From Nodosilinea sp. FACHB-141 (GTDB lineage Bacteria > Cyanobacteriota > Cyanobacteriia > Phormidesmidales > Phormidesmidaceae): a DNA stretch of 64,000 nt. Numbering within the stretch: the first letter of the stretch is position 1; each line of letters begins with the position of its first letter. Under the pieces are notes generated by a model. The model worked only from the letters and a program-made list of their open reading frames with translations. It did no database searches and was not told the DNA's origin. Both the position numbers and the translations under genes were made by a program. The DNA lies in assembly GCF_014696135.1 (NCBI RefSeq), contig NZ_JACJPP010000011.1, positions 434,001 through 498,000 on the forward strand. Reading direction: 5' to 3'. Below, one piece after another: positions 42,233 through 57,392 of the stretch.

Positions 42233-43102
42233 GTGGCGATTGTCCTGACCCCCCTAAAAGCCCTATGGCGCAAGAAAACCCTAATTAAGCGCTGGCTACC
42301 CCTGGACGATGCCCAATGGGCAAAGCTGAATCTACTCAAAACTTTAGTTCAGCGAGACTTAGAGGCGCGCTATAAAGGCTCTATTTTAGGCAAGCTTTGG
42401 CCCCTGCTCCACCAGGTGTCGCAGCTGCTGATCTACACTTACGTGTTTGGGGTTGTGCTCCAGCTTAGGCTCAGTTTAGCTGGGCTACCAGAAGACAATT
42501 CCTTTATCTTTGGGCTGTGGCTGTTTGCTGGTTTACTTCCCTGGCTGGCCTTCAGCGGCGGACTGTCCCAAGCTGCCACGTCGGTTATCACTCAGTCCAA
42601 CCTGGTCAAGAAGGTTGTCTTTCCGCTTACTCTGCTGCCCCTAGTGCCCATTCTCTCTAGCTTTATTGAAAGCACCTTTGGTCTCATGGCGCTGATTACC
42701 TTTGTGGTGCTGGCCACTCAAAAGCTGCATCCGACCCTACTATTGCTGCCTCTGGTATGGTTACCCCAGCTCTGTTTAACTGCTGGTCTAGGGTTTTTAA
42801 CTGCTGGTCTGTCGGTATTTTTGCGCGATATTCCCCAAACCCTAGGGGTTATTCTCAACCTGTGGTTTTATGCCACACCGCTTATTTATCCAGCTAACAT
42901 GATTCCTCAGCCGTTTCAAAGCTGGGTGTTTTGGCTCAATCCTATGGCAGCCATAGGCGAGCTATATCGAGATATGATTTTAACGGGCACCGTGACTCAC
43001 TGGAGCGAGTGGGCCGTGGCAACGATTGTATCCCTACTGATTTTGCTGGGTGGCTTCTGGTGTTACCGCAAACTACGGCCTGCCTTCGCTGACGTGCTGT
43101 AG
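42233..43102 (+). CDS. wzm: ABC-2 polysaccharide exporter permease (Wzm-like)
   Basis: A 289-residue membrane component of an ABC exporter that moves undecaprenyl-linked polysaccharide across the inner membrane. The TM helices are typical of Wzm/ABC-2 (VSQLLIYTYVFGVVLQL, FIFGLWLFAGLLPWLAFS, TLGVILNLWFYATPLIYP), and the signature RDLEARYKGSILGKLWPLL lies near residue 40. The start is the GTG at 42233 with AAGG about nine bases upstream. The matching ATPase (Wzt) follows after 259 bp, and polysaccharide genes continue for 20 kb. Confidence 0.9.
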   Translation: MAIVLTPLKALWRKKTLIKRWLPLDDAQWAKLNLLKTLVQRDLEARYKGSILGKLWPLLHQVSQLLIYTYVFGVVLQLRLSLAGLPEDNSFIFGLWLFAGLLPWLAFSGGLSQAATSVITQSNLVKKVVFPLTLLPLVPILSSFIESTFGLMALITFVVLATQKLHPTLLLLPLVWLPQLCLTAGLGFLTAGLSVFLRDIPQTLGVILNLWFYATPLIYPANMIPQPFQSWVFWLNPMAAIGELYRDMILTGTVTHWSEWAVATIVSLLILLGGFWCYRKLRPAFADVL

Positions 43103-43183: not shown

Positions 43184-43361
43184 CAACTTCAACATTGAGG
43201 TTTGGCTGATCCTACCTCCGACTAGGATAAAACAACCAAGGGCAGAAAAACTGGCATAACAGAGCCTCGGCTAAAGAACTAAAGTCACCACTGAATGTTC
43301 AGGGCACGAATAAGGTATGCGTTAGCGGTAATTGACCAAACAGGAAGGATCTTGGAGAGTG

Positions 43362-45347
43362 ATGACTAAGGAGATTGTGATTTCGCTACAAAATGTATCT
43401 AAGGTGTATAAGCGATATTACCAGCCCGTAGATCGTTTGAAGGAAATTTTGCTGCCTGGAAAACCTAGAGCAGAAGAGTTTTGGGCACTGCAAAATGTCA
43501 ACATGGAAATTGCTCAGGGCGAGTCGTTGGGCATCATTGGCCGAAATGGATCGGGTAAAAGTACTCTGCTGCAAATTATTGCAGGCACCCTCACCCCAAC
43601 GACGGGAGAGGTAAAGGTCAACGGACGAATGTCAGCGCTACTAGAGCTAGGTAGTGGATTTAATCCAGAGTTCACAGGACGGCAAAACGTATTTTTTAAT
43701 GGTCGCCTTTTAGGATTAACCCAGGAAGAAGTTGAGGGTAAGTTTGATGAAATTGCTGCCTTTGCTGACATCGGTGATTTTCTTGATCAGCCAGTCAAAA
43801 CTTACTCTAGTGGTATGTTTATCCGCTTGGCCTTCTCGGTAGCGGTTAACGTTGATCCTCAGATCCTGATTGTAGACGAAGCTCTAGCCGTTGGAGATGT
43901 TTTTTTTCAGCAAAAGTGCTTTGGCAAAATGCGGCAGCTAAAGGCATCGGGTAGCAATTTACTATTTGTTTCCCATGATTCCTCGGCAATCTACAAACTC
44001 TGCAGTCGGGCAGTACTTTTAGAAAATGGGCACTTAATTCTAGATAGTCAGCCGAGGCAGGTGATCGATTTATACGAAGCCAAAGTCTTGAAAGAAGCAG
44101 ACCAAGACTCTGACTCTCTAGGCGTCAACATGATTTTTGAGACTAGTCAACCCAAAGATAATCCTGACCTACAGGATGTAATTGAAGGAATGCCAGAGAA
44201 CGTAGAAGAGATAAAACTTCATCGATCAGACGTTACTATCCGCTCGGTTCAGCTTTTGAATGGTGAAGGGAAAACTATTCGAACCCCTGCTATTGACCAG
44301 CCTGTTAGGCTGGTGATAAATATACAGTTTCACAAAGCCTTTGAAGATCCGCACGTAGGATTTAAAGTTCGCGATCGCACAGGCTTAGACTTGTTTATGA
44401 CGAACACCTACATCATGAACAAATCATTAGGGGCAGTTACAGCTGGTGAAATTATAGAAGTAGGCTTTAGCTTTTCTATCTCCATAGGTGAAGGTGCTTA
44501 TACAGTAACCATTGGCGTAGCTGATAGTGGTTACGGTGAAGGCTCATTTCGCACGATTCTTATTTATGCACACAACGCCTTATCCTTTAAAGTGCTACGA
44601 AACCCTGAGAAACCAGTATGGTTTGGAATTGCAAGCCTACAACCAAAGTTGACGGTAAAGCGAAGCCAATCAACAATTTCTCATTCGAATGAGATTCCAT
44701 CGCTAGAAATAATTACCCCATTGCCGCCAGCTAAGGCTTATGTAGACGATCAGCTGTTTGCCTTACTTCAGCCATACACGCTGTGTAGCCGTGGTCGCCT
44801 TGAAAATATAGCCCGACTTTCCGCGCAGCTCAACAACCAAAATATACCCGGCGACTTTGTTGAATGTGGAACGTATAAAGGTGGTTCTGCGGCTCTACTT
44901 TCGAGATTTTTAAATTTGGAGCGGCAGCTTTGGTTATACGACAGCTTTCAAGGAATGCCGCCTACCTCTGCCAAAGATGGAAAAGATGCCGCCAATTGGG
45001 TCGGAAAATGTGTGGCTGAAATCAGTGACGTCAGAGAAATCTTAGGCTACGTCTCAGCACCCGTAGAAAAATGTCATATCAAACCGGGTTGGTTTCAAGC
45101 AACTTTCCACCAGCCTTTGCCGAAACAGGTTGCACTGTTACACTGCGATGCAGATTGGTATGAATCGGTTATTCTTGTTTTGAACACATTCTATGATCGC
45201 ATTCCAAGAGGCGGATGCATTATTCTCGATGACTTTGGCTATTGGCAGGGATGCCGGGAAGCCTTCTATGATTTTTGCAAGCAGCGGGATGAGAAACCCT
45301 TGTTAGAGCGTGTTGGCTCAACTCAAGCATACTGGATTAAAACTTAA
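43362..45347 (+). CDS. wzt: Wzt-type exporter ATPase fused to a TylF-like methyltransferase
   Basis: A 661-residue fusion. Residues 1-260 are the Wzt nucleotide-binding domain (Walker A GRNGSGKST at 60-68, signature-like YSSGM near 150, Walker B ILIVDEALAVGD). Residues about 290-415 form the Wzt carbohydrate-binding beta sandwich (GVGFKVRDRTGLDL-type, GEGAYTVTIGVAD). Residues 465-661 are a TylF-type class I methyltransferase (CSRGRLENIARL, DFVECGTYKGGSAAL, YDSFQGMPP, LLHCDADWYES, ILDDFGYWQGC). In ABC-exported O-antigens, chain ends are commonly methylated and Wzt's C-terminal domain reads the cap. Here cap maker and cap reader seem to be one protein. Start ATG 43362 with GGAG. Confidence 0.9.
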   Translation: MTKEIVISLQNVSKVYKRYYQPVDRLKEILLPGKPRAEEFWALQNVNMEIAQGESLGIIGRNGSGKSTLLQIIAGTLTPTTGEVKVNGRMSALLELGSGFNPEFTGRQNVFFNGRLLGLTQEEVEGKFDEIAAFADIGDFLDQPVKTYSSGMFIRLAFSVAVNVDPQILIVDEALAVGDVFFQQKCFGKMRQLKASGSNLLFVSHDSSAIYKLCSRAVLLENGHLILDSQPRQVIDLYEAKVLKEADQDSDSLGVNMIFETSQPKDNPDLQDVIEGMPENVEEIKLHRSDVTIRSVQLLNGEGKTIRTPAIDQPVRLVINIQFHKAFEDPHVGFKVRDRTGLDLFMTNTYIMNKSLGAVTAGEIIEVGFSFSISIGEGAYTVTIGVADSGYGEGSFRTILIYAHNALSFKVLRNPEKPVWFGIASLQPKLTVKRSQSTISHSNEIPSLEIITPLPPAKAYVDDQLFALLQPYTLCSRGRLENIARLSAQLNNQNIPGDFVECGTYKGGSAALLSRFLNLERQLWLYDSFQGMPPTSAKDGKDAANWVGKCVAEISDVREILGYVSAPVEKCHIKPGWFQATFHQPLPKQVALLHCDADWYESVILVLNTFYDRIPRGGCIILDDFGYWQGCREAFYDFCKQRDEKPLLERVGSTQAYWIKT

Positions 45348-45419: not shown

Positions 45420-46328
45420 ATGGTAGTTAAGAGCCCCCTAACTAATTGCGATAATGTGACTCTCTTGAACAAATTTTCAAGGGAAAAGATTATCAGCGAC
45501 TGGCAAGATTCCTTTCAAATAGATGTTAGTGCGGATCTCAAAGCTTATCCAACCTTTCAACTATATCGATGTAATATCACCGACCTACGTTTTTTCTACC
45601 CTTTGGATATTTTTGGTTCAGCTCAGTTATACGAAAATCTTATGAAATTTGAGTGGTACTACATGGCTGAAAAGTGGGAGTACCAGGTCGCGCTTCAGGA
45701 CTTACAAGAGAACAGCAGAATCCTAGAAATAGGTTGTGGTCATGGTCATTTTGTACGTCAGGTAAAAAATATGGGCTTTCAAATTGAAGGAATTGATTAT
45801 AACGAGAAGGCTGTGCTTGATGCTCAGATAAGTGGCCTTAATATTCATCAGTCATCAATCGCAGATATTTTGGCCAAAGGAAAATTTCAATACGATTGCC
45901 TTTGTGCCTTCCAGGTTTTAGAACACTTACCCAATCCATTAAAATTTCTTACAGATTGTATCGACCTTCTGAAATCAAATGGCTTATTATTGTTGAGCGT
46001 ACCTAATGCGAAGAGCTTTCTAAAGTACCAATATAATTTACTTGATATGCCTCCTCACCACATGGCTCAGTGGTCCGTCAAGACTTTCCGCGCTTTAGAA
46101 AAACTTTTGCCGCTGAGACTTGAAGCTACTCGTTTCGAACCCTTAGCTGACTATCACATTGCTGGCTACGTCCAGGCGAAAGAAAATGAGTTTAAGAGTG
46201 TTTTATCTCGATTACCAAGTTCCTTAGCTACTTCGATGATAAATAACTACGAGAAAGCCTTAAGAAGGGGACTAAATAGATATACAAGAGGGCAAAGTCT
46301 GTACGTTAAACTTCGGAAGCGGAAATGA
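45420..46328 (+). CDS. Class I SAM-dependent methyltransferase
   Basis: A 302-residue methyltransferase. The SAM-binding motif is ILEIGCGHGHFVRQVKNMGF, with the acidic end of strand 2 at EGIDYNEKAV and the post-motif LCAFQVLEHLPNPLKFL. The N-terminal 100 residues and the C-terminal tail are specific to this protein. It probably modifies a sugar in the polysaccharide, but the acceptor is unknown. It starts at ATG 45420, 72 bp after wzt. Its stop overlaps the ATG of the next gene by four bases (ATGA), so the two are coupled. Local sequence is AT-rich compared with the core genome. Confidence 0.87.
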   Translation: MVVKSPLTNCDNVTLLNKFSREKIISDWQDSFQIDVSADLKAYPTFQLYRCNITDLRFFYPLDIFGSAQLYENLMKFEWYYMAEKWEYQVALQDLQENSRILEIGCGHGHFVRQVKNMGFQIEGIDYNEKAVLDAQISGLNIHQSSIADILAKGKFQYDCLCAFQVLEHLPNPLKFLTDCIDLLKSNGLLLLSVPNAKSFLKYQYNLLDMPPHHMAQWSVKTFRALEKLLPLRLEATRFEPLADYHIAGYVQAKENEFKSVLSRLPSSLATSMINNYEKALRRGLNRYTRGQSLYVKLRKRK

Positions 46329-48823
46329 GATACCTAAATTTAGGATGTGGCAATCACTTTCATCCAGACTGGGTTAACATAGACTTCCAGTCAACTGGAA
46401 CTGATGTTATTACTCATGATCTGCGTAAGCCAATCCCTTTTGCAGACAATACTTTTGATGCCGTTTACCATTCTCATCTTCTAGAACACTTTTCTCGATC
46501 CGAAGCTAAGCCTTTTCTGCAGGAGTGCTTACGAGTTCTTCGTCCAGGTGGTGTGCTTAGGATTGTTGTACCAGATTTAGAACAAATAGCCCGCGAATAT
46601 TTGCGAATCTTGGAAGAAACAGAAAATGGTTTTGAGAAGACCGCCCATGACTATGACTGGATTTTGTTAGAAATGTATGACCAGGCTGTTCGTCATCAAC
46701 CTGGAGGTGACATGGCCAAGTATCTCTCGAAAAACCAGATTCCTAACGAAGATTACGTCATCAAGCGTTTTGGCTATGAAGGGCAGACGCTTATAGAAAA
46801 CTTAAAAGGCAAAAATTTAGAAGATTCTCAAAACCAAGCGATTTCAGAAAATACTAATGAAGCTGCATTGGCAATCGGACATTTTCGTTTAGGTGGCGAA
46901 GTTCATCAATGGATGTACGATGGCTATTCTCTACGACGGTTATTAAGAGAGTCTGGATTCAACGATGTTGATGTTTATGATCCATCAGAATCACAAATTC
47001 CAAACTTCTCTAACTATTATTTAGATGTTCTAGAGAATGGTCAGGTTAGAAAACCTGACTCTTTATTTGTGGAAGCTAGTAAACCCAATGATGTTGTAGA
47101 CTCCTGGACTTTTGGGACTGAGAACTCTCAAGAAATACTAAAAACAATACAGATCGTGACTTACGACATACAAGGAGGAGCAGCTCGGTCTGCGTATCGA
47201 CTACATCAAGGACTACGCTTGATTGGTCAAGACTCCTTGATGTTAACCAGATATCGAAAGTCAGAAGATCAGTTTGTATGCTCAGCATCAGACTTGAGTC
47301 TAGCAAGCGTTCTCCCAGACGAATACAGTCTCTACGCAGAAATTCAGCTTAACTACATAGATAATAATCGTACTGACCTTTCAAACACTTTATTTTCGTA
47401 TCCTTATCCAGCTATTGACCTAGCGAATGTTGAGCAGGTTAAACAGGCTGACATTTTAAATTTACACTGGGTTGCTTGGTTTCAATCTGCTAAAACTATC
47501 GCTTCACTTTTAGCTTTAGGTAAACCTATTGTGTGGACCCTGCACGATATGGCTGCCTTTACAGGTGGCTGCCATTATTCTGCTAGATGCGATCAATATC
47601 AAGCTGATTGTAGTGAATGTCCTCAATTAAAAGCAGATAAGTATAATTTACCTGCTTTAATTTTAGAAGATAAGCTTCAACATCTATTGCCTTATTCAAA
47701 TCTGACTATTGTGACACCTAGTAAATGGTTAGCAGAGTGCGCTCGCAAAAGCTCCTTGTTTCGGAATAATCGTATTGAAGTGATACCTTATGGTTTAGAC
47801 ATTGAAGTATTCAAACCCATTCCTAAAGAAATAGCTAAACGTCACTTAGGCTTACCCAAGGATTCAGTAGTATTGCTTTTCGGTGCTGACTCCAATGGGG
47901 AAAAACGAAAGGGATTTGAGCTTCTACTTGAAGCACTATGTCAATGCTTTGAGAACTCTCTAGTTCAGCAAAAGCTACAAGAAGGTCAAATCAGGATCTT
48001 AAATTTTGGCCATGGTTGTTCTAGTTTAGACAGCCTAGGATTTCCTATTACGTCTCTTGGCCACATAACTTCAGACGAAGAACTAAGCTATATTTATTCT
48101 GCATCAAACGTTTTACTACTTCCTTCTCTAGAGGACAATTTGCCGAATCTTATGTTAGAGTCTATGAGCTGTGGAACACCTGTTTTTGCATTTTCGACAG
48201 GTGGAATGAAAAGCTTTATAAAAGATAAAAAGACAGGAGTTCTAGTATCTCCTGAAGATATTCTCGGTTTCTCCGAAGCAATTTTAGACATCTTGCTTGA
48301 TCCTGAAAAATATTTATGGATGGGTTCGAAAGCGCGTTCGGAAATTGAGGAAAATAATTCCTTAAAACACCAAGCAAATCTATATACGGATCTTTATCTA
48401 GACTTGTTAAATAATTATCAAAAATCAGACGTTCATAAAAAACAAGAATCTGAGAGATCTATTTATAGTGAAAGATCGGGCCTACGTGATGTCGCTATTG
48501 AGTCGGGACGCATCGCTTTATTGAAAGAGCGTCAACTTACTCATGATCTCCGACAAGAAGTTATAGATGCCCAAATTAATCTTCAGCAAGCTAAAGAGAC
48601 TTTTCAGCAAACTCAAATTGACCTGCAACAAACTCAGGCTGATCTCCAGCAAACTCAGGCTGATCTCCAGCAAACTCAGGCTGATCTCCAGCAAACTCAG
48701 GCTGATCTCCAGCAAACTCAGGCTGCCATATTAAATATGGAGATGAGCAAGTTTTGGCAAATACGAAAAATTTGGATTTTAGTGAAAACCTCAATACATG
48801 AAAAGTTCTTTAAGTCTGATTAG
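46325..48823 (+). CDS. Methyltransferase-glycosyltransferase fusion with coiled-coil tail
   Basis: An 832-residue protein in three parts. Residues 1-250 are a class I methyltransferase (YLNLGCGNHFHPDWVNIDF, HSHLLEHFSRSE, LRVLRPGGVLRIVVPDLEQ). Residues about 275-700 are a GT4 glycosyltransferase (IVTYDIQGGAARSAYRLHQG; PSLEDNLPNLMLESMSCGTP with the E-x7-E motif). Residues about 740-805 are a coiled coil built from QTQADLQ repeats, followed by MSKFWQIRKIWILVK. It probably methylates and glycosylates the same glycan. The start codon overlaps the stop of the preceding methyltransferase gene by four bases. The repeats look young (see separate entry). Confidence 0.85.
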   Translation: MRYLNLGCGNHFHPDWVNIDFQSTGTDVITHDLRKPIPFADNTFDAVYHSHLLEHFSRSEAKPFLQECLRVLRPGGVLRIVVPDLEQIAREYLRILEETENGFEKTAHDYDWILLEMYDQAVRHQPGGDMAKYLSKNQIPNEDYVIKRFGYEGQTLIENLKGKNLEDSQNQAISENTNEAALAIGHFRLGGEVHQWMYDGYSLRRLLRESGFNDVDVYDPSESQIPNFSNYYLDVLENGQVRKPDSLFVEASKPNDVVDSWTFGTENSQEILKTIQIVTYDIQGGAARSAYRLHQGLRLIGQDSLMLTRYRKSEDQFVCSASDLSLASVLPDEYSLYAEIQLNYIDNNRTDLSNTLFSYPYPAIDLANVEQVKQADILNLHWVAWFQSAKTIASLLALGKPIVWTLHDMAAFTGGCHYSARCDQYQADCSECPQLKADKYNLPALILEDKLQHLLPYSNLTIVTPSKWLAECARKSSLFRNNRIEVIPYGLDIEVFKPIPKEIAKRHLGLPKDSVVLLFGADSNGEKRKGFELLLEALCQCFENSLVQQKLQEGQIRILNFGHGCSSLDSLGFPITSLGHITSDEELSYIYSASNVLLLPSLEDNLPNLMLESMSCGTPVFAFSTGGMKSFIKDKKTGVLVSPEDILGFSEAILDILLDPEKYLWMGSKARSEIEENNSLKHQANLYTDLYLDLLNNYQKSDVHKKQESERSIYSERSGLRDVAIESGRIALLKERQLTHDLRQEVIDAQINLQQAKETFQQTQIDLQQTQADLQQTQADLQQTQADLQQTQADLQQTQAAILNMEMSKFWQIRKIWILVKTSIHEKFFKSD
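48608..48727 (+). repeat. 21 bp tandem repeats coding QTQADLQ
   Basis: Four perfect 21 bp units run 48629-48712 (core CAGGCTGATCTCCAG), with a diverged unit before (48608-48628) and a partial unit after (48713-48727). All are in frame and add seven residues each. Perfect identity suggests recent slippage. Confidence 0.9.
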
Positions 48824-48838
48824 GTGATAGTTGCTATT

Positions 48839-48889
48839 TAAGACGCCTAGTTAGGATACGCTAAGTGCGTATCCTAACTAGGCATCTTA
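48839..48889. terminator. Long hairpin between convergent genes
   Basis: A 23 bp stem with a single mismatch (48839-48861 against 48867-48889, core CCTAGTTAGGATACGC) and a 5-base loop lies between the 3' ends of the fusion gene and the FG-GAP gene. There is no clear T-run, but the stem is strong enough to act in both directions. Confidence 0.65.
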
Positions 48890-48958
48890 AATTTCCTAAT
48901 TCACTAACACGGGTTGCAATAACCCTTATCATGCCTGAATTGTGTTTCTATGTGCCCG

Positions 48959-50440
48959 TTAGACGGGAATAGATTCTCCAGTTGGGTTAGGCTGTGCAAA
49001 GAATCCACCGCCAATAATATCGGGGCCATCCATAAGCCAAGCAGCCTTTGTTCCAGTACTTGATGTCCAATAGATATCAGTGTTGCTATCCCCGTTTAGC
49101 TCCCGGAATTCAAATTGCCAACCATTCTGGCCTGCAATTGGGGCATCAGGCAAGAAGCCACCATCGATAATAGTTGACCCATCCATGAGCCAGATGGCGA
49201 ACTGGTCATCAGGGGTGTTGTTCCATAAGATATCAGTCTTGCCGTCGCCGTTGAAGTCGGCAAAGAATGAATCCCAATCTTCGCCACTGGTGCCGGTTTT
49301 AGGCGATGTGGGTAGAAAGCCGCCATTGACAATGGCGGGACCGTCCATTATCCAAACTGCTTTGGTGCCGTTAACAGAGTTTTCCCACAGAATGTCGGTT
49401 TTGCTATCGCCATTAAAATCGCCAAAGGCAGTATCCCAATCGTTGGGGTTGCTGCCAGAAATCGGTGTTGATGGCAAAAAGCCGCCATTGACGATGTTGG
49501 GGCCATCCATGATCCAGGTCGCTTTTTCTCCAGTGGTATTATTCTGCCAGAAAAAGTCAGTTTTGCTGTCGCCATTAAAGTCGGCGAAGTCAAAAGACCA
49601 TTGTGTAGCAAGTTGTTCTGGCCTAGGACTTGTCTGTAAAAAGCCCCCATTGACGATGTTGGGGCCATCCATGATCCAGGTCGCTTTTTCTCCAGTGATA
49701 TTATTCTGCCAGAAAAAGTCAGTTTTGCTGTCGCCATTAAAGTCGGCAAAGTCAAAAGACCATTGTGCAGCAAGTTGTTCTGGCCTAGGACTCGCCTGTA
49801 AAAAGCCCCCATTGACGATATTAGGACCATCCATTATCCAAATAGCGACTTCCCCAGCATTAGTGATAGACGTTGTACTCTTGCGCCATAGAAAGTCGCT
49901 TCTACCATCGCCGTTGAAATCTACTCCTGTAGAAAAATCCCACTCTAAGGGATTTTGGCCTACTCCCGTTCTAGGTGCGCCCTGTAAAAAAGCCCCATTG
50001 ATGATGCTGGTACCCTGCATGTTCCAGATGGCAATTTCAGTACCATCCTCTCTACGCCAGAAAATATCGCTGGTGCCATTGCCATCAAAATCGAGCTTAG
50101 GAGCTGGATAACCCTCTGTGAAGAGCCAACCATAATCTCCAAAAGGGGTATAGCTTGACCAGTCACCGTAGGAAAACTCGATATCCCAAGCGGTGGGAGA
50201 ATCTGTACCTCTAGGGGAAGCTGGCAGAAACCCACCCCCAACAACGTTGACGCCATTAAAAATCCAGATGGCTACCTGACCGGCATTTGAGGTCGAGGTT
50301 TCTAATCTTCGCCAAAGAATATCATTAATACCATCTCCGTTAAAGTCGGATGAGGCAGTGTCGCTGAAGAACTGATCGTTCTCAGTAATCTGTCGCCAGT
50401 CGGTGGGGCCGTCCTGTACGCCGTAGGATGTATTTGGCAT
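48959..50440 (-). CDS. FG-GAP/VCBS-like repeat protein
   Basis: A 493-residue protein made of about eight beta-propeller-type repeats. Each repeat carries a calcium-binding-like DFNGDGKTDILW or DFNGDSKTDFFW motif and a segment WIMDGPNIVNGGFL. In the middle the repeat period is exactly 54 codons (162 bp), with almost identical DNA at 49487, 49649 and 49811. There is no signal peptide (MPNTSYGVQDGPTDW); it could leave the cell by a route that uses a C-terminal signal. The start ATG 50440 has GGAGA upstream. Its place inside a polysaccharide island suggests a surface protein or glycan-binding protein, by inference only. Confidence 0.85.
   Translation of the reverse strand: MPNTSYGVQDGPTDWRQITENDQFFSDTASSDFNGDGINDILWRRLETSTSNAGQVAIWIFNGVNVVGGGFLPASPRGTDSPTAWDIEFSYGDWSSYTPFGDYGWLFTEGYPAPKLDFDGNGTSDIFWRREDGTEIAIWNMQGTSIINGAFLQGAPRTGVGQNPLEWDFSTGVDFNGDGRSDFLWRKSTTSITNAGEVAIWIMDGPNIVNGGFLQASPRPEQLAAQWSFDFADFNGDSKTDFFWQNNITGEKATWIMDGPNIVNGGFLQTSPRPEQLATQWSFDFADFNGDSKTDFFWQNNTTGEKATWIMDGPNIVNGGFLPSTPISGSNPNDWDTAFGDFNGDSKTDILWENSVNGTKAVWIMDGPAIVNGGFLPTSPKTGTSGEDWDSFFADFNGDGKTDILWNNTPDDQFAIWLMDGSTIIDGGFLPDAPIAGQNGWQFEFRELNGDSNTDIYWTSSTGTKAAWLMDGPDIIGGGFFAQPNPTGESIPV
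49487..49972 (-). repeat. Three 162 bp in-frame repeats
   Basis: Units starting near 49487, 49649 and 49811 show period 162 bp. The first two are nearly identical over most of their length (for example GTCGCTTTTTCTCCAGTG in both), which argues for recent unequal crossing-over or gene conversion. Confidence 0.85.
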
Positions 50441-50914
50441 GGGTTTTCTCCAAAATCAAGCATCTACACACATCAAATGTTGTCAGAAATGACAATATGC
50501 CTTTGAATTTTCTAAATGCGCTTTCAGTAAGATCTAGGCAATTTTGGTAACGTCAAACGCTACATGATAAGCCCTAAGCTTGTTATGCTGTAGACGTCGC
50601 CGTGCCCTCGATCGCATCACTCGGTGGAGCGAACCCGGTGAAAGCATGCAATAAAAATCTTTAGAGAACACACTATGACACTGTACTACTCTACTGATGC
50701 GCTAGGTTTTTATATCTAAAAAAGTAAAACAATCTTTTCATTGCCTTACTTAAGTACATGTTATATAGAAGAGCGCTCGCATACGTGTTAGGCACTAGAT
50801 AGCCGAATTCTTTTAGGGCACCTCGAAAAATATAATTCTTACTAGGAATAAAACAAGACTTCAATAGTTTTGGGCTCCAAGAATTCGCAATAATGCAATT
50901 AATCGAGGTGCCTT
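50441..50914. other. Intergenic upstream region of the FG-GAP gene
   Basis: About 470 bp of AT-rich sequence. A perfect short palindrome TTGTCA-GAAA-TGACAA at 50480-50495 lies 40 bp before the start of the FG-GAP gene and could be an operator. No gene is supported. Confidence 0.35.
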
Positions 50915-51078
50915 TTACATTAACAAGTTTCTAAGATAGCTTGTCCAGCGATCACCTTGACACTTAAGTGTGCATTCTTCTCAATCAGCTTTTTCTTGGC
51001 CCCCCGTAGATTTGACCAACATCAGAATCCTTCATGAAAAACTCTATTTCGTCAATCATCATGTCAGAGGATATTTGA
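50915..51078 (-). pseudogene. Relic of a GT4 glycosyltransferase 3' end
   Basis: On the minus strand it reads IDEIEFFMKDSDV..YGGAKKKLIEK, then after a one-base deletion LKCQGDRWTSYLRNLLM-stop. This matches the C-terminus of the GT4 gene at 54283-55620 (IDEIEFFMGTSN..YGEAGRKLVEK, LKCQGDRWMNYLRKLSM). The natural stop codon is kept at 50915-50917. The rest of the gene is missing; an IS630 element begins about 80 bp further upstream. Confidence 0.8.
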
Positions 51079-51156
51079 AAACACAGAGCTGGGGTATCGA
51101 AAGCGTCATGCTACGCAGTTAGCTTGAGAGGATGTTTGCTATTGCCAACAATGAGG

Positions 51157-52081
51157 TAGTTAGGACAGTTTTCTGAAGGCATCATCGACGGCATCCCAGA
51201 GGGTGTCAAAGGCGCTGAGCGTCTTGCGAAGATGGCGTTTTAACCGTGCCCAAAATTTTTCAATCTTGTTGAGGTCTGGAGAATAGGGTGGTAGGAACAA
51301 GACGGTGCAGCCAACTTGCTCAATCAAGTTCTGCGTGTGCTGAGATTTGTGGAAGCTAGCGTTGTCCATCACGACAACCTGACCCGGGCTCAGTTCAGGA
51401 ACGAGGTAACGCTCAACCCATGCCTCGAACAGGCGTGTGTCGCAGTGTCCTGAATAGGTCATCGGGGCGAGAACCGCTCGATTGCACCAGCCTGCCACCA
51501 TGCTGATGTGCTGGGTTCTGTGACCCAATTTGAGGGCATGAAAGCGCTCTGAGCGAGGGCAGTAGCCGTAGGGATAGTCTTCGGTATCATCGACCCCTGC
51601 TTCGTCGAGATACACTACCTGAGTCGGGTCAACCTGCGCTAGTTGCTTAGAAAGACTCGGCGTTTGGCCTCATTGCGCTCGCGGTAGCCATAGGTCTTTT
51701 TTTACGCGTAAACCCAATGCGGCGAAGCGCTTTGCCTATAGTGACATCGCTAATCGGCTCAAGCCAACGCTCGGCCATCTGTTGCTGGGTAAGATGACCA
51801 TGAGTTTGAGCAAAGGCCCGGAAGGCCTCTAAATCGTTGACCTTGGGGTGGGGCCCCCGGTGATACCCCCGCACTGGCGAGGCACTGCCAGTAGCATCAC
51901 GGCGTTTAAGCCATAGGTCAAGAGTGTTTCGGCTGATGTTAAATATCCGACTGACCTGGCTTTTCTTCTCGCCTCGGTCAACGGCAGCAAGCACTTTCTC
52001 ACGCAGGTCATCACTATAAGCGGCTGGCATTAGGAGTAGTGGTACGGCAAACACACTTTCCCATCTATATTGTCCTAACTA
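51157..52081 (-). mobile_element. IS630-family insertion sequence (ISY100-like)
   Basis: Terminal inverted repeats GTAGTTAGGACA (51156-51167) and TGTCCTAACTAC (52071-52082) flank about 0.92 kb. TA dinucleotides at both ends (51157-51158, 52080-52081) fit the TA target duplication of IS630/Tc1-mariner elements. The transposase inside is split into two frames. Confidence 0.85.
51160..52054 (-). pseudogene. IS630 transposase, frameshifted
   Basis: The upstream part (51647-52054) is the helix-turn-helix domain (AYSDDLREKVLAAVDRGE, SQVSRIFNISRNTLDLWLKR). The downstream part (51160-51615) is the DDE domain (VYLDEAGVDDTEDYPYGY with the first Asp; VVMDNASFHKSQHTQ with the second; FLPPYSPDLNKIEKFWARLK with the Glu). 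The A7G run at about 51697-51704 is a good -1 slippage site and would give RKKKTYGYRERNEAKRR as in active relatives. That frame then meets a TAG, and one base is missing near 51645 before the DDE frame. So the copy seems inactive despite intact catalytic residues. Confidence 0.8.
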
Positions 52082-52122
52082 CACCTTCGACTGCAATAAG
52101 TCTTATTTCTTGTAGCGGAAGT

Positions 52123-52186
52123 GGGGATCCCCCTAAATCCCCCTTAAGAAGGGGGACCCTTACCCCCCTAAGAGGGGCAAGGGGGA
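52123..52186. repeat. CCCCCTAAATCCCCC-type repeat remnant
   Basis: GGGGATCCCCCTAAATCCCC, AAGAAGGGGGACCC and AGGGGCAAGGGGGAG form the alternating C-run/G-run pattern of a common cyanobacterial intergenic repeat. It sits between the IS630 element and the IS4-like remnant. Confidence 0.65.
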
Positions 52187-52203
52187 GCAGCAGGTGACTA
52201 AAG

Positions 52204-52724
52204 CTACAGCAAATCACTTTTCAAACGCCCTCTGATGCCTTTGATACATGCTCTGCGTTTCCAAATGTCCTCTAAGACCATCATATTGGGATAGGACTGC
52301 AACAGCTGATGGGCCAATCGCAGCATGGGCACATACCGATGAGTACTGACGGTGGCACTGGGATGCTCCAAAACTCGCCACAGCAAGGGCACCGCTTGTT
52401 CACAACAGGCCACTGACAGGTGAATCATGCAGTAGCGATTCCACCGTGGTATCGAGAGTTAGGTAGGACCGACGCCTTTTCCAGTGATGAATCGCCGCGA
52501 GCACCAAGGGTACGTATAAGCTTTTCACGTGTACTTGTCGATTGCCCATAGCGTTGCCATCGTCGTTCGGTACTTTGCGCTTGGCGGGCGCAACTCGGCA
52601 CATACAATTCCCATTCCGGCAGACTTAACCGACCACTGCACACTAGCGCCGTCACCATCCACGCCAGCGCTTTGAGGTGTCGCAGATCGCGGCGGTGACT
52701 ATATTGACGCAGCAGTGGCACCAC
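52204..52724 (-). pseudogene. IS4-like transposase remnant in three frames
   Basis: Read on the minus strand, three successive frames make one protein: VPLLRQYSHRRDLRHLKALA...TERRWQRY, then GNRQVHVKSLYVPLVLAAIH...YLTLDTTV (first Asp of the DDE triad), then MIHLSVACCEQAVPLLWRVLE..MLRLAHQLLQSYPNMMVLED. Two frameshifts and loss of the C-terminal half make it a dead fragment. The family call rests on the order RRWQR...LDTT...PLLWRVL, typical of an IS4-type group in cyanobacteria. Intact terminal repeats were not found. Confidence 0.75.
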
Positions 52725-53314
52725 TTATCATAAAGACAGGTGGTCGCTGACATGGTATAGACCCTGAAATGACGCAAATTTCAGCGTCTTATGTCAGGTC
52801 GCCTTTTCTCCCTCGCTTCACGAGGTTTCAAGCCTCTCGCTCACTTCTGTCAGGCAGTCAAGCGCTGGCAATTGGCCTAATTCGCTACTCCCCTACCCCT
52901 TTTCAAACGCTCTCTGACGGCCAAAGGTGTAAAATTGATGCTTCCTTGCTAGTTAATCTCTTGCCCAAGGTATTCAAGCCTCCTTCATCAATATATGCTA
53001 TTGAATGATTTGGTGTAGAAGTGAAATGATGATTGGAATAATCAACTCTTTGAAATCAATGAGGATAAAAGGACTCAATTTTTTGAGCAATCTCTTTTGT
53101 CAAAGCGATTGAGTTTCAGAATATTTATCTTGTGCTAACATCTTCCTTGATTCGATTACTGCTCTTTAATTTGATTATTGCTTGATCGAAAAAATCCTCA
53201 CTGAGCAGCGCATGACTGGACTTTCTCGAAAAGGATCATCGTCAGTATCATTGCTCCTTTCCGATGAGTGTAGGCCCCAAGATTAACTTTTTCGAACTTA
53301 AAGTCTTGCGTAGA
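52725..53314. other. Intergenic region with remnant-like sequence
   Basis: About 590 bp. A 79-codon frame at 52769-53008 (MTQISASYVRSPF) has no recognisable features and I do not call it. CTTTTCAAACGCTCTCTGA at about 52904 is nearly repeated at about 52216 (CTTTTCAAACGCCCTCTGA), so the stretch may hold an end of the IS4-like element. Confidence 0.35.
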
Positions 53315-54226
53315 CTATTCGATAAATCCATTCTTATTTTTCTCCAAAACTCCAAATATTTTCTTTACTTTTAACCAAGCTAATCTCATCTTCCAAAACT
53401 TACTAGACTCCATTGCTTGAATACGAGATTGAGCTTGCTCGAGTTCAGTCTTAACTTGCTGAATACGAGATTGAGCTTGCTCGAGTTCAGTCTTAACTTG
53501 CTGAATACGAAATTGAGCTTGCTCAAGTTCAATCTTAACTTGGTGTAAATCCTGGCCTATAGCTGCATCAGCTTTACATCCTGAAAATTCCTGTGCGCTT
53601 AGTCTTGGCCTAGCTACTCCACCACATTGATTTGTTGTTAGTAAGAAAGCGGAACAACCAAACGTTCCAACAAACTCAGCATAGCCTTCTCGAATAAACT
53701 CATTGACGGCCTGCCTGACTCCCATTTCACCTGTTTCATTTTCAGGGTTGGCGTAGTCATGACACAGAACTGGTGTTCCAGCCACTAGATAATCTTTGAG
53801 CAATAGTAAGTCGCTTTTAACACCTTCATATCGATGATCAGCGTCCACAAAAACCATTGTGGGTTGAATGGAAAATTTTTTAACAAAACTATTGAGCGTT
53901 CCATGGAATAAAAGGCAATAATCCGCCAAATTAAATTTTTCGAGGGTATCAGCTGTTCTCAAAACACCATCGATATCTAAGTCAATACCAAAATATTGGG
54001 GCTTGATAGAGCGATCTGGATTTGCTAGGGCACCTTCCAACTCCACAACCGCAGATCGACCACTGTAAGTCCCAATCTCCAAAATTACATCCCCATTCCT
54101 GTAACCCATTTCGTAGAGCTTATAGGAATCTCCAGGCTCCTGCCAGCCTGGAATATCTTTTGTCTTCTCAAAAATGCTATGGTGATCTTCGTTGAGAAAG
54201 TGCTGTTGTTCAGTCCAAGTAGTCAT
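53315..54226 (-). CDS. SAM-dependent methyltransferase with coiled-coil tail
   Basis: A 303-residue protein. Residues 1-200 are a class I methyltransferase of the Methyltransf_24/CmcI type: GDVILEIGTYSGRSAVVELE (motif I), QYFGIDLDIDGVL, TMVFVDADHRYEGVKSDL and TPVLCHDYANPENETG. Residues 228-270 are three tandem 14-residue repeats (QVKTELEQAQSRIQ) forming a coiled coil. It ends MESSKFWKMRLAWLKVK, very like the tail of the fusion protein at 46325-48823. It probably acts on the same polysaccharide. It is the last gene of a three-gene minus-strand run (57392 to 53315). Confidence 0.87.
   Translation of the reverse strand: MTTWTEQQHFLNEDHHSIFEKTKDIPGWQEPGDSYKLYEMGYRNGDVILEIGTYSGRSAVVELEGALANPDRSIKPQYFGIDLDIDGVLRTADTLEKFNLADYCLLFHGTLNSFVKKFSIQPTMVFVDADHRYEGVKSDLLLLKDYLVAGTPVLCHDYANPENETGEMGVRQAVNEFIREGYAEFVGTFGCSAFLLTTNQCGGVARPRLSAQEFSGCKADAAIGQDLHQVKIELEQAQFRIQQVKTELEQAQSRIQQVKTELEQAQSRIQAMESSKFWKMRLAWLKVKKIFGVLEKNKNGFIE
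53418..53544 (-). repeat. 42 bp tandem repeats coding QVKTELEQAQSRIQ
   Basis: Three in-frame units of 42 bp; the first two on the plus-strand map are almost identical and the third differs at a few positions. Each adds 14 residues (four helical turns) to the coiled coil. Confidence 0.9.
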
Positions 54227-54282: not shown

Positions 54283-55620
54283 CTATCCCAGAGGGGAAGG
54301 ACTTTGGGTATCCAAACGTGAACTTGTTTCTTCACAGTTCCCTGCTGGCTGCATTGATAGCTTTCTAAGGTAGTTCATCCATCGATCGCCTTGACACTTA
54401 AGGGAAAATTCTTTCTCAACTAACTTTCTTCCTGCCTCTCCATAGGTTCGACATGCATTTGATGTTCCCATAAAAAACTCAATCTCGTCAATCAACGCTT
54501 CAGCTGTTGCCTCATTGGCCAGACGGGCATTGAGATCATGGCGGGCTATTTCTGGAATGCCATCTCTCTTAAAAGCAACAATGGGCACGGCACAGGCTGA
54601 GGCTTCACAAAAGGTTTGGCCAAAGGCTTCTTCCAAAGAGGTTCCTACGAACAAGTCTACTGCACTGTAAATCAAAGGCATTCGGCGATAGTCCCGAATT
54701 AACCCTGTGCCACACACACCAGGAACTTGTGTGGATGCCATACCAAACACAACAAAGTGGGCTCTGCCTTTCAGTCGCTGAACAACTTCTTTGAAAATGT
54801 GCCCTCCCTTACGATATTCGGTGACATTAACCGAACCCCCTAAAATCACAAACTTATTTTGGGGAATACCAAGAATCTTGCGGGCCAAGGTTTGATTTAT
54901 TGGCTGAAACAGTTGTTCGTCTACCCCATAATAGAGACAGTCAACCTGAGCCTCTCCATGAAAAGCTTTGTTTGCCATATCGGCTGTCCACCGACTATTT
55001 GTAGCCAGAGGAATAGCGTTAGCACCACAAAAAATTTCTCGACGTAGTTGCCATTGGTCAAAGATTTTCTTAGGCTCTAAGATAGGATACTCCTGCCACG
55101 TGGGACAGGTTTCATTACAGCCGGTTTGATATAAAGTGCAATTGCCAGTGTAGGCACAACGTCCTGAGATCAGGTAACAGTCATGCATATAAGCAATCAC
55201 TAGACATTTTAGTGATTGTAAGGTTTTCAGTAAATCTAGGGGCCACATGGCACTATGTAAGTTGCCTACGATAATTACATCAGGGCTCCATCGACTCACT
55301 TCGAGAATCAACTGCTCTATGATATAGTTTGACCTCAAACCAAAGTAACCATTCAAATGGGGCAGTTCTGTTAACCCAAACCAACGCCCCGAAGAGTTTT
55401 GCGTCTCTAACGGAATAGTCTTTTCCGTTTCCCCTTGGGTACAAGAAATGGCTTTGACAGCATGCCCCATAAGCAAAAAAGACTGAATCTGCCGTAGAGC
55501 GGCAATGCCAGCTCCGTATTGAAAACCTAGATCATTGATGTAGAGAATACGAAGCGGTTGCTGACTATCGAGCTTATCCTGAATGAAAGGATAGCGGCAA
55601 TCTGTTGAGGAAATATTCAT
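54283..55620 (-). CDS. Glycosyltransferase family 4
   Basis: A 445-residue GT-B enzyme. The N-terminal domain begins LRILYINDLGFQYGAGIAAL (a glycine-rich acceptor-side loop) and contains GNLHSAMWPLDLLKTLQSL and MHDCYLISGRCAYTGNC with the Cys-rich insert seen in related GT4 proteins. The donor domain has FVILGGSVNVTEYRKGGHIF and VGTSLEEAFGQTFCEASACA (E-x7-E). The sugar is unknown. It starts at ATG 55620, with 14 bp between it and the stop of the upstream GT2 gene, so they form one transcript. A relic of a close paralogue lies at 50915-51078. Confidence 0.88.
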   Translation of the reverse strand: MNISSTDCRYPFIQDKLDSQQPLRILYINDLGFQYGAGIAALRQIQSFLLMGHAVKAISCTQGETEKTIPLETQNSSGRWFGLTELPHLNGYFGLRSNYIIEQLILEVSRWSPDVIIVGNLHSAMWPLDLLKTLQSLKCLVIAYMHDCYLISGRCAYTGNCTLYQTGCNETCPTWQEYPILEPKKIFDQWQLRREIFCGANAIPLATNSRWTADMANKAFHGEAQVDCLYYGVDEQLFQPINQTLARKILGIPQNKFVILGGSVNVTEYRKGGHIFKEVVQRLKGRAHFVVFGMASTQVPGVCGTGLIRDYRRMPLIYSAVDLFVGTSLEEAFGQTFCEASACAVPIVAFKRDGIPEIARHDLNARLANEATAEALIDEIEFFMGTSNACRTYGEAGRKLVEKEFSLKCQGDRWMNYLRKLSMQPAGNCEETSSRLDTQSPSPLG

Positions 55621-55634
55621 GCCTGGGTGTACAA

Positions 55635-57392
55635 CTAGAGATGTTGACTAAACTGCTTGCTGACTTCCCGCAATTCGGGGAGGTAGGGAAGGACTTCACC
55701 ATAGGTTTTTTGGGCCTTGTGAACCCGATAGTTCACAAGTACATCAGGAATGTGGATAACCTTTGCTCCTGCACGAGCCATTCGAAGCCACATTTCATAA
55801 TCCATGCTGTAAAAAAGGTCTTCTTTGAGACGAGCGCCTGAGCGTTCCCAAATATCGCGAGTCCAAAAAACTTCAGGCTGATAGAAGAAATATCCCTTTA
55901 ACCAACAATTATCAATATCTAGTAGTTTCTCTAGCGATAAAGGAACAACCTGGCCGATTGGCATTTGATCGTGATGAATTGTAGAAAGCTCAGGATTATA
56001 ATCATGGTATAGGCGACAACCTCCAGTCACAATATCACTCTCGTAAATTTTAAAAGCTTGTGCTACCCGCATTAAGGTGCCGGGTAGATAGTAATCATCA
56101 CTATTGAGCCATGCCAAAATATCTCCAGTGGCATGACTAAATCCTTTATTCAGCGCGTTGGCCTGTCCCTGATCTGGCTCGCTGACGCAATAAGTGAGTT
56201 CATGTCTATATCGATCGAGAATGACTGGGGTATTGTCTGTAGATCCTCCATCGATCACGATGTACTCCAAATTGGGGTATCCTTGCATCAATACCGAACG
56301 GATTGTTTCTTCCAAGAATGCTCCTTGGTTGAAGGTCACTGTAATGATGGAAATTTTGGGAAATTTGTACCCTGATGGCAACCCTTCAGGAATCTGGGCA
56401 GTGGGATAGTTCCAAGGCCAAGCATAATTTTTGTTGAGGGCCTGATTCGCAAACGGATCAATCCAACTCTCAGCTGGAGCTTCGTAGAAGTTTAAAGTTG
56501 AAGGTAGTTTTTCACCAGGGACCCAATCAAATTCTGAGTTAATCATGGCAGGAAAGGTAATGATCCGAGTCTGAGACGTAAGGTGTCCTTTTAGAAATAG
56601 AAGACTGTTTGATGAGGTGTCACTGCTAAGGCAGAGCAAATCACAGTTCTTAAGGGTATAAGTATAGGAGTTTACCAACCAACTTTCTAAGGTGTCTGCA
56701 ATTGCACGTATGTTGTAGTTGGCGAAATTTGCAATTTCCGGGAAGCTACAGTCAAAACAGGTAACCTGACCTCCAGCTTGGGTGATTGCTTGCAAGAGTG
56801 GCAAAATCTGTTGATTGGGCTTTATGCAGAGAGCGTGCTGTGTTTTGGCAATTAGTGCGGATAAGTACTCCAGTTTTGGTAGATCGGACTCACCGTTGAT
56901 TTTAATGCCCAAAGCCCTAGCTACGACTGTTGTTCTGACCAACAGTGTTTCTGTGTCAATGTTAGAGCCGATTCCCTTGCTGGGAAATGTCAATTTCTGC
57001 AATGTTGGCTGAGCGTTAGATTGGGTGTCGGGAGGGCTCTCCTGCCCTAATGAAGCATCTTGAAGAGCGCTAGTAAGGGTGGCTGGCCGCCATTGATCGC
57101 GGAAGAAAAAGTTGTAAAGGGGAACAAATATTTTATAGTTTCTATAAACCAAGTCATAGGCCTTAATTCTCTGTAAAGTTGCCTTGAATAGTTTGCGAAT
57201 AGAGGCTTTAGTTGTTGAAAGATAAGCTAGCTCCTGTTGTAGGGTACGGGTCTCATGGGTCAAAGCTGAACGAGACAACTGAACAGATGCAAGTGCTTGT
57301 TGTAGGTGAATGATAGTCGCTTCTTTTTCTTGCAATTGGTTTTGCAGTTGTTTGATGTCATCTGGTTTGGATTGACTTTGACTCGGCAGCAT
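55635..57392 (-). CDS. Glycosyltransferase family 2 with N-terminal coiled coil
   Basis: A 585-residue protein. Residues about 8-75 are a coiled coil (DDIKQLQNQLQEKEATIIHL). Residues about 140-330 are a region with Rossmann-like strands (LVVRTTVVARALGIKINGE-type), possibly a degenerate domain. Residues about 345-585 are a GT-A transferase (KISIITVTFNQGAFLEETI, YIVIDGGSTDNTPVI, GDILAWLNSDDYYLPG with the metal-binding DD, SMDYEMWLRMARAGAKV). It resembles the plus-strand GT2 at 58703. First gene of the minus-strand run; no terminator is seen between it and the GT4 gene. Confidence 0.87.
   Translation of the reverse strand: MLPSQSQSKPDDIKQLQNQLQEKEATIIHLQQALASVQLSRSALTHETRTLQQELAYLSTTKASIRKLFKATLQRIKAYDLVYRNYKIFVPLYNFFFRDQWRPATLTSALQDASLGQESPPDTQSNAQPTLQKLTFPSKGIGSNIDTETLLVRTTVVARALGIKINGESDLPKLEYLSALIAKTQHALCIKPNQQILPLLQAITQAGGQVTCFDCSFPEIANFANYNIRAIADTLESWLVNSYTYTLKNCDLLCLSSDTSSNSLLFLKGHLTSQTRIITFPAMINSEFDWVPGEKLPSTLNFYEAPAESWIDPFANQALNKNYAWPWNYPTAQIPEGLPSGYKFPKISIITVTFNQGAFLEETIRSVLMQGYPNLEYIVIDGGSTDNTPVILDRYRHELTYCVSEPDQGQANALNKGFSHATGDILAWLNSDDYYLPGTLMRVAQAFKIYESDIVTGGCRLYHDYNPELSTIHHDQMPIGQVVPLSLEKLLDIDNCWLKGYFFYQPEVFWTRDIWERSGARLKEDLFYSMDYEMWLRMARAGAKVIHIPDVLVNYRVHKAQKTYGEVLPYLPELREVSKQFSQHL

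Follow-up and report, generated by a model that had tools for sequence, protein, structure and literature searches.

The window analysed here is a stretch of 64,000 nucleotides from Nodosilinea sp. FACHB-141 (contig NZ_JACJPP010000011.1, positions 434,001 to 498,000), and coordinates refer to it unless another locus is named. Its forward strand encodes a polysaccharide exporter comprising Wzm, an ABC-2 polysaccharide export permease (42233-43102; PF01061, E = 7.6e-21), and Wzt (43332-45347), in which Pfam recognized an ABC ATPase and a carbohydrate-binding Wzt_C domain fused to a TylF methyltransferase. Six further genomes have Wzt_C open frames of 690-701 aa, which may represent the same Wzt-TylF fusion. 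The same strand carries a class I methyltransferase (Methyltransf_23; 45420-46328) and an 832-aa fusion of a methyltransferase (Methyltransf_11) with a GT4-type glycosyltransferase (46325-48823). The reverse strand carries a 303-aa CmcI-like methyltransferase (Methyltransf_24; 53315-54226), a GT4-type glycosyltransferase (54283-55620), and a GT2 glycosyltransferase (55635-57392).

The original prediction held that the 832-aa and 303-aa enzymes have unrelated catalytic parts and share a repeat-built coiled coil followed by an SKFW tail at their C-terminus. The Pfam assignments agreed with the first statement, and the coordinates and frames of both proteins proved right. The fusion protein ends in ...NMEMSKFWQIRKIWILVKTSIHEKFFKSD and the methyltransferase in ...AMESSKFWKMRLAWLKVKKIFGVLEKNKNGFIE, and their common C-terminus consists of a heptad coil and then SKFWxxRxxW. 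In the fusion gene, a 21-bp tandem repeat of 5.8 copies (48605-48725, forward strand; TRF) encodes LQQTQAD heptads, and the tail covers residues 799-825 of 832 (48719-48799). In the methyltransferase gene, a 42-bp tandem repeat of 3.1 copies (53413-53542, reverse strand; TRF) encodes 14-residue double heptads, and the tail, also modelled by AlphaFold2, covers residues 265-293 of 303 (53348-53434). The GT2 enzyme, for which a coiled coil had been predicted at the N-terminus, does have a coil-like N-terminal segment, but the HMM scan found no SKFW tail in it. The Methyltransf_23 and GT4-type enzymes are likewise without the tail.

An HMM built from 18 seed tails from outside the window found both proteins among 4,695 ORFs, the methyltransferase with 47.9 bits (iE = 1.4e-13) and the fusion protein with 23.3 bits (7e-6), whereas the next-best window ORF scored 2.2 bits. 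With the HMM of all 20 seeds, none of the 4,695 reversed ORFs reached 25 bits (top score 14.0) versus 214 forward proteins. In the 5.9-Mb host genome, SKFWxxR was encoded at 19 DNA places, and only the window pair showed in-frame coil-plus-tail ends; the same two proteins, both among the 20 seeds, were the only matches to the tail profile. An origin of the tail from chance or from the low complexity of the repeated coils has negligible probability: the coils are indeed simple DNA repeats, but the conserved part lies outside the repeats, and the reversed ORFs, the leave-window-out HMM, and the reversed query described below all ruled out chance.

Several other features lie around the two convergent tailed genes. 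Directly 3' of the first is a 26-nt inverted repeat (48836-48892; 96% complementary, 5-nt loop), which is possibly a terminator. An FG-GAP repeat protein containing 162-bp DNA repeats is encoded between the two genes at 48959-50440. The segment 51140-52098, also between them, harbors adjacent ORFs in different frames (51160-51615 and 51647-52054) and imperfect 28-nt inverted repeats at its flanks; this arrangement suggests an IS element whose transposase is split. On the question of a viral origin, a search of viral contigs returned one relative of the catalytic domain, with 32% identity over query residues 48-177. Leptolyngbya sp. FACHB-60 (L051), the nearest relative found, encodes orthologs of both tailed proteins, and matches to Wzm, Wzt, and Wzt_C are also present in it. 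Its two tailed genes likewise flank an ORF, which is similar in size to that of the FG-GAP protein.

Column statistics were taken from 186 non-redundant tails out of 220, selected with a cut-off of 25 bits and a loose filter on the motif and consequently biased towards conservation. With the Trp of SKFW as position 0, the core comprises Ser-3 (98%), Lys-2 (99%), Phe-1 (99%), Trp0 (100%), Leu+2 (77%), Arg+3 (99%), and Trp+6 (99%). It is preceded by Ile-9 (74%), Ala-7 (85%), and Met-6 (87%), and followed by Phe+7 (75%), Lys+10 (85%), and Gly+14 (67%). Upstream of the tail, the 3.5-residue hydrophobic periodicity was 22.5 versus 7.1 in shuffles (185 tails), with hydrophobic positions at -44, -37, -30, -23, -16, and -9 and weaker ones at -41, -34, -27, and -20; the heptads thus keep a fixed register with the motif Trp. 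Past the motif, the column statistics read as a hydrophobic pattern shifted by one residue.

The AlphaFold2 models offer a helix break at Ser-Ser as a reason for this shift. In the window methyltransferase, a single coil helix was predicted at 221-274, a break at 275, and a second helix at 276-290; these 54 coil residues would measure about 8 nm at a rise of 0.15 nm per residue. In a natural fragment with two tails, each coil helix stops right before the S-K step and a new helix begins from F-W. Only the coil and tail blocks of the best models were used (score 79-86); the methyltransferase was modelled from a 5-row alignment, its catalytic domain being of low quality (mean pLDDT 54.9), and the two-tail fragment from a 2-row alignment (mean pLDDT of the five models 72.9 to 53.6). 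Together with the periodicity, the single helix agrees with the coiled coil originally predicted.

The fixed register, the shift across the motif, and the predicted break at Ser-Ser would all suit a module that merely caps the coil, setting oligomer number and register without an outside partner. Such a cap predicts neither the restriction of the tail to glycan enzymes nor its linkage to Wzt_C, both reported below, and some tails near the protein N-terminus are preceded by only about 25 residues (L067 and L090). We regard this explanation as very unlikely.

Of 155 tails, 122 lie within 20 residues of a closed ORF end. The other 33 are located internally, at the N-terminus, or in an ORF truncated at the locus end, which speaks against a strictly C-terminal tag. 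The C-terminal tails end about 19 residues past Trp0 (range 16-24, 5-95%). Some carriers outside the window have an N-terminal coil or one that separates two domains, and two proteins end in two complete SKFW tails in tandem (L056:12976-13332 and L052:12892-13248). A weaker variant, SSDWW-x-LRExWW, occurs inside long proteins whose genes are directly 3' of a standard tailed gene (L071:4452-9884, L074:4918-10296, and L061:10109-15655).

The tail is strongly basic (mean net charge +5.5), and 96% of 182 tails passed a HeliQuest-type discriminant (mean D = 2.09). These properties, and the published membrane association of the C-terminus of the E. coli enzyme WbdD, are what a membrane-surface anchor would show, in which a basic helix rich in Trp rests on the anionic inner leaflet without any partner. 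However, D is driven by charge, and the hydrophobic moment did not exceed that of composition-matched shuffles (0.29 versus 0.28, sd 0.14; 182 tails), which counts against a plain membrane helix despite the basic charge. Moreover, the 99-100% identity of K, F, W, R, and W in the 186 filtered tails exceeds the need of a generic lipid-binding helix. We consider an anchor acting alone a rather unlikely explanation.

Database searches gave the tail no known relative. None of the 20 seed tails matched Pfam at E <= 1, and in NCBIfam two of the 20 matched VcdP only (best E 0.022). PDB sequences returned no tail match at E <= 10, and Foldseek against the PDB none at E <= 0.001. A relation to a known domain was rejected on these Pfam, NCBIfam, PDB sequence, and PDB fold searches.

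The profile search over cyanobacterial genomes that the original prediction called for detected the tail in 79 of the 386 genomes of the phylum and in 48 of 143 genera (E <= 0.001). When one genome of each species was scanned, the best 79 of 305 relatives' loci all bore names that we take to be cyanobacterial. For classification by Pfam, we used 40 representatives of 47 segment groups drawn from 150 non-redundant proteins. Thirty-four of the 40 were a glycosyltransferase, methyltransferase, or sulfotransferase at 1e-5, and six had no Pfam match; a loose Pfam search of these six gave coil-type and marginal matches. The carriers belong to at least eight catalytic families in Pfam, with GT2, GT4/GT-B, and WsaF-type glycosyltransferases, class I methyltransferases, FkbM, Methyltransf_24, TylF, and Sulfotransfer_1 and _3 among the classes. 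Tails have so far been seen only on glycan-type or unclassified enzymes, and the proposal of a portable tail common to the enzymes of the island is supported.

The tails are linked to ABC polysaccharide exporters. In the distance count, which comprised 132 tail rows after the seven weakest (E >= 6e-5) were left out, Wzt_C was within 20 kb of 61 tails, whereas a rough estimate predicts about 1.3. The flippase family PF01943, for which the same rough estimate gives about 4.8, was within 50 kb of none of the 132. The searches for both families covered 72 tailed genomes of 74 (G170 and G215, with one tail each, lie outside the set) and located 97 Wzt_C and 143 PF01943 places. Strong Wzt_C places (at least 77 bits) had a tail within 20 kb in 38 of 50 cases, and weaker places in 2 of 47. 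Strong Wzt_C was present in 42 of the 72 tailed genomes versus 7 of 44 tail-less genomes (Fisher p = 6e-6), and Wzt_C at any score in 58 versus 23, in a comparison with tail-less genomes hand-picked from the class and uncorrected for genome size and relatedness. A second genome collection gave 51 loci with a length of 19 kb or more, and 36 of these contained both Wzm and an ABC ATPase. Judged by the PF01943 flippases, which were never near a tail, the Wzx pathway was rejected.

For 71 of the 132 tails, no Wzt_C was found within 20 kb, and only 4 of 20 loci around such tails contained Wzm and an ABC ATPase. Accordingly, part of the tailed enzymes either act in another setting or have a transporter encoded far away. 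Five of the tailed proteins lacking a nearby Wzt_C (three in L152, one in L156, and one in L167) were likewise sulfotransferases or glycosyltransferases. As many contigs are short, the tail-exporter distances give lower bounds on linkage.

At least two tailed proteins were encoded in 65 of 119 loci, with a maximum of six, and 64 of 132 tails had another within 10 kb, a figure that includes tandem tails belonging to a single protein. These numbers and the tandem tails would be expected of a homotypic assembly tag, in which the tails of one locus bind each other through mixed coils or SKFW helices to form a multi-enzyme complex; the loci with up to six tailed proteins keep this idea, which is the one originally proposed, alive. 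On a helical wheel, the near-invariant S-K-F-W..R..W residues occupy both helix faces, which resembles a protein contact more than lipid binding. Same-locus tails were also slightly more alike: in the variable motif columns likeness was 0.45 within versus 0.42 between loci (exceeding 1000 of 1000 permutations), and in the coil 0.18 versus 0.16 (998 of 1000). On the other side, 54 of the 119 loci, some of them cut, have a single tailed protein, and the within-locus excess may reflect a shared genome or duplication. Locus-specific matching of tails was set aside, being significant by permutation but tiny in excess. We consider the assembly tag possible, although rather unlikely. The densest loci, with six tailed proteins each, were L063:3430-14165 and L070:2-12116.

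A counterpart of the tail occurs in proteobacteria, in the form SRSWRLTAPLR. Used as a query against 72,556 plasmid records, this string gave 12 matches at E <= 1 (best 0.08), every one annotated as a sulfotransferase, glycosyltransferase, FkbM, or class I methyltransferase. Searches were run at E up to 1 and 10, and most matches are individually weak. A real proteobacterial tail retrieved 52 plasmid records at E <= 10, some of them near-duplicates, whereas the reversed query retrieved none. The 52 records comprised 13 sulfotransferases, 13 glycosyltransferases, six methyltransferases (one DUF1698), three rhamnan synthesis F proteins, 12 hypothetical proteins, and five without a listed gene; there were no other named functions. 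Another real tail retrieved 18 records: five methyltransferases, three glycosyltransferases, one FkbM, one sulfotransferase, five hypothetical proteins, and three without a listed gene. In 16 plasmid loci picked for variety rather than at random (L170-L185), both an ABC permease and an ATPase were within 9 kb in 10, one of the two in two, and neither in four.

The proteobacterial SxSWRxTxPLR tails resemble the SKFW tails in their enzyme classes, in the coil-like stretch that precedes the motif in most carriers, and in the ABC exporter genes often found nearby. They differ in having a Pro after the motif and in lacking the second Trp at the same place. In one hhalign comparison, the local alignment of the SKFW and SxSWRxT profiles reached 74% over 15 columns in register (P = 2.8e-5), and the alignment forced over all 26 columns 3.7%. 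Of 18 proteobacterial proteins, just 3 had the best match of the cyanobacterial HMM on the motif. Judged by these alignments, descent from one ancestor is only moderately supported, and likeness by convergence is possible.

Among the closest known systems is WbdD, the coiled-coil chain terminator of ABC-transporter-dependent O antigens, a methyltransferase in O8 and a kinase-methyltransferase in O9/O9a. One of the 16 plasmid loci is an E. coli O8 cluster (L175), carried by an IncC plasmid and only a few kb away from blaKPC-2. In it, the carrier adjoins O8-family wzm and wzt and is annotated only as a methyltransferase; we identified it as WbdD from its place. This protein has the motif NSRSWRITQPLR after its coil. 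In the O9 cluster, the protein in the WbdD position has HRSRSWRMTKGYR after its coil, with the Trp at residue 595, and is 708 residues long, the published size of O9a WbdD. The 12-residue windows of highest identity between the two proteins start at O8 304-322 and O9 588-606, that is, at the motif and the following residues.

WbdD resembles the window enzymes in having an N-terminal catalytic domain, a coil, and Wzm/Wzt encoded beside it, and the S-x-S-W-R-x-T motif at its coil end is moderately similar to SKFW. According to published work, the length of its coil sets chain length, and its C-terminus contains an amphipathic helix for the membrane and a site that recruits the polymerase (PMC11231755, PMC5082667, PMC3447403). 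The same sources and a review describe the order as catalysis, a trimeric measuring coil, and a membrane- and polymerase-bound C-terminal region, with a Wzt domain that recognizes terminated chains only (PMC11231755, PMC5082667, PMC3447403, PMC6286764); the review calls the C-terminal domain structurally uncharacterized (PMC6286764). As published, WbdD 1-600 could be expressed and purified and the full-length protein was hard to solubilize. By our O9 numbering, the purifiable construct keeps the motif, so the motif alone need not bind the membrane. A literature search with the motif strings, which covered few subscription journals, found no mention of the Trp motif at the WbdD coil end and nothing on the tailed proteins. 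The motif adjoins the C-terminal domain of WbdD.

The two systems also differ. The WbdD motif reads SRSWRIT or SRSWRMT and the cyanobacterial one SKFWKLRxxWF. O9 WbdD continues for 113 residues past the Trp, as opposed to about 19 in the cyanobacterial C-terminal tails, which lack a C-terminal domain of about 110 residues after the coil. The cyanobacterial tail is carried by many enzyme types, often by several enzymes of a locus and by up to six, whereas the WbdD model needs one ruler. We know of no termination activity for the cyanobacterial tailed enzymes. The tailed enzymes can also be likened, by published description, to the Klebsiella O4, O7, and O12 polymerase-terminators (ORF7, ORF6, and WbbB), in which a coil joins catalytic modules in ABC-dependent glycan assembly; ORF6(O7) orthologs are reported from cyanobacteria (PMC11231755).

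Because the window has a Wzt_C exporter and two coil enzymes with a conserved motif at their coil ends, the reading we favor, and consider probable though far from certain, is that the coil and SKFW tail form the foot of WbdD-type coils on polysaccharide enzymes with Wzm/Wzt export. The tailed enzymes would build, cap, or decorate polysaccharides exported via the Wzm/Wzt ABC transporter, with the catalytic domain placed at one end of an oligomerizing coiled coil. The coil helix would end at A-M-E-S-S, and the strongly basic, Trp-rich second helix, KFWKLRxxWFxLKxxLGL, would hold the complex at the assembly site by attaching to the surface of the membrane, to the polymerase or the transporter as a partner, or to other tails. 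By analogy, this arrangement corresponds to the published WbdD layout of catalysis, coiled-coil ruler, and membrane- or polymerase-binding end. We infer that one of the tailed enzymes of the window may be a chain terminator read by the Wzt_C domain. That the tail may keep the enzymes attached to each other or to the membrane, as originally suggested, is plausible by the same analogy, since a similar motif stands where the coil of E. coli WbdD ends, and membrane association and polymerase recruitment have been published for the C-terminal region of WbdD.

A more speculative extension of the foot reading, which we put forward only tentatively and think unlikely, is that the SKFW module serves cyanobacteria as a dedicated docking code for the assembly of ABC-exported glycans. 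Each enzyme would stand on its own coil of set length, and coil lengths in whole heptads (21- and 42-bp repeats) would set reaction order and spacing along the growing chain in a multi-ruler line, as opposed to the one ruler of WbdD. If this were true, polymerase, capping methyltransferase, and sulfotransferase would share one site through tail-tail or tail-transporter contacts.

The findings suggest that more than one enzyme of a locus may follow the ruler principle. The 21- and 42-bp repeats in the coil DNA could allow an easy change of ruler length. Read against the orthologs of Leptolyngbya sp. FACHB-60, the coil of the window's 832-aa protein has one heptad fewer, and that of its methyltransferase has one 14-residue unit more.
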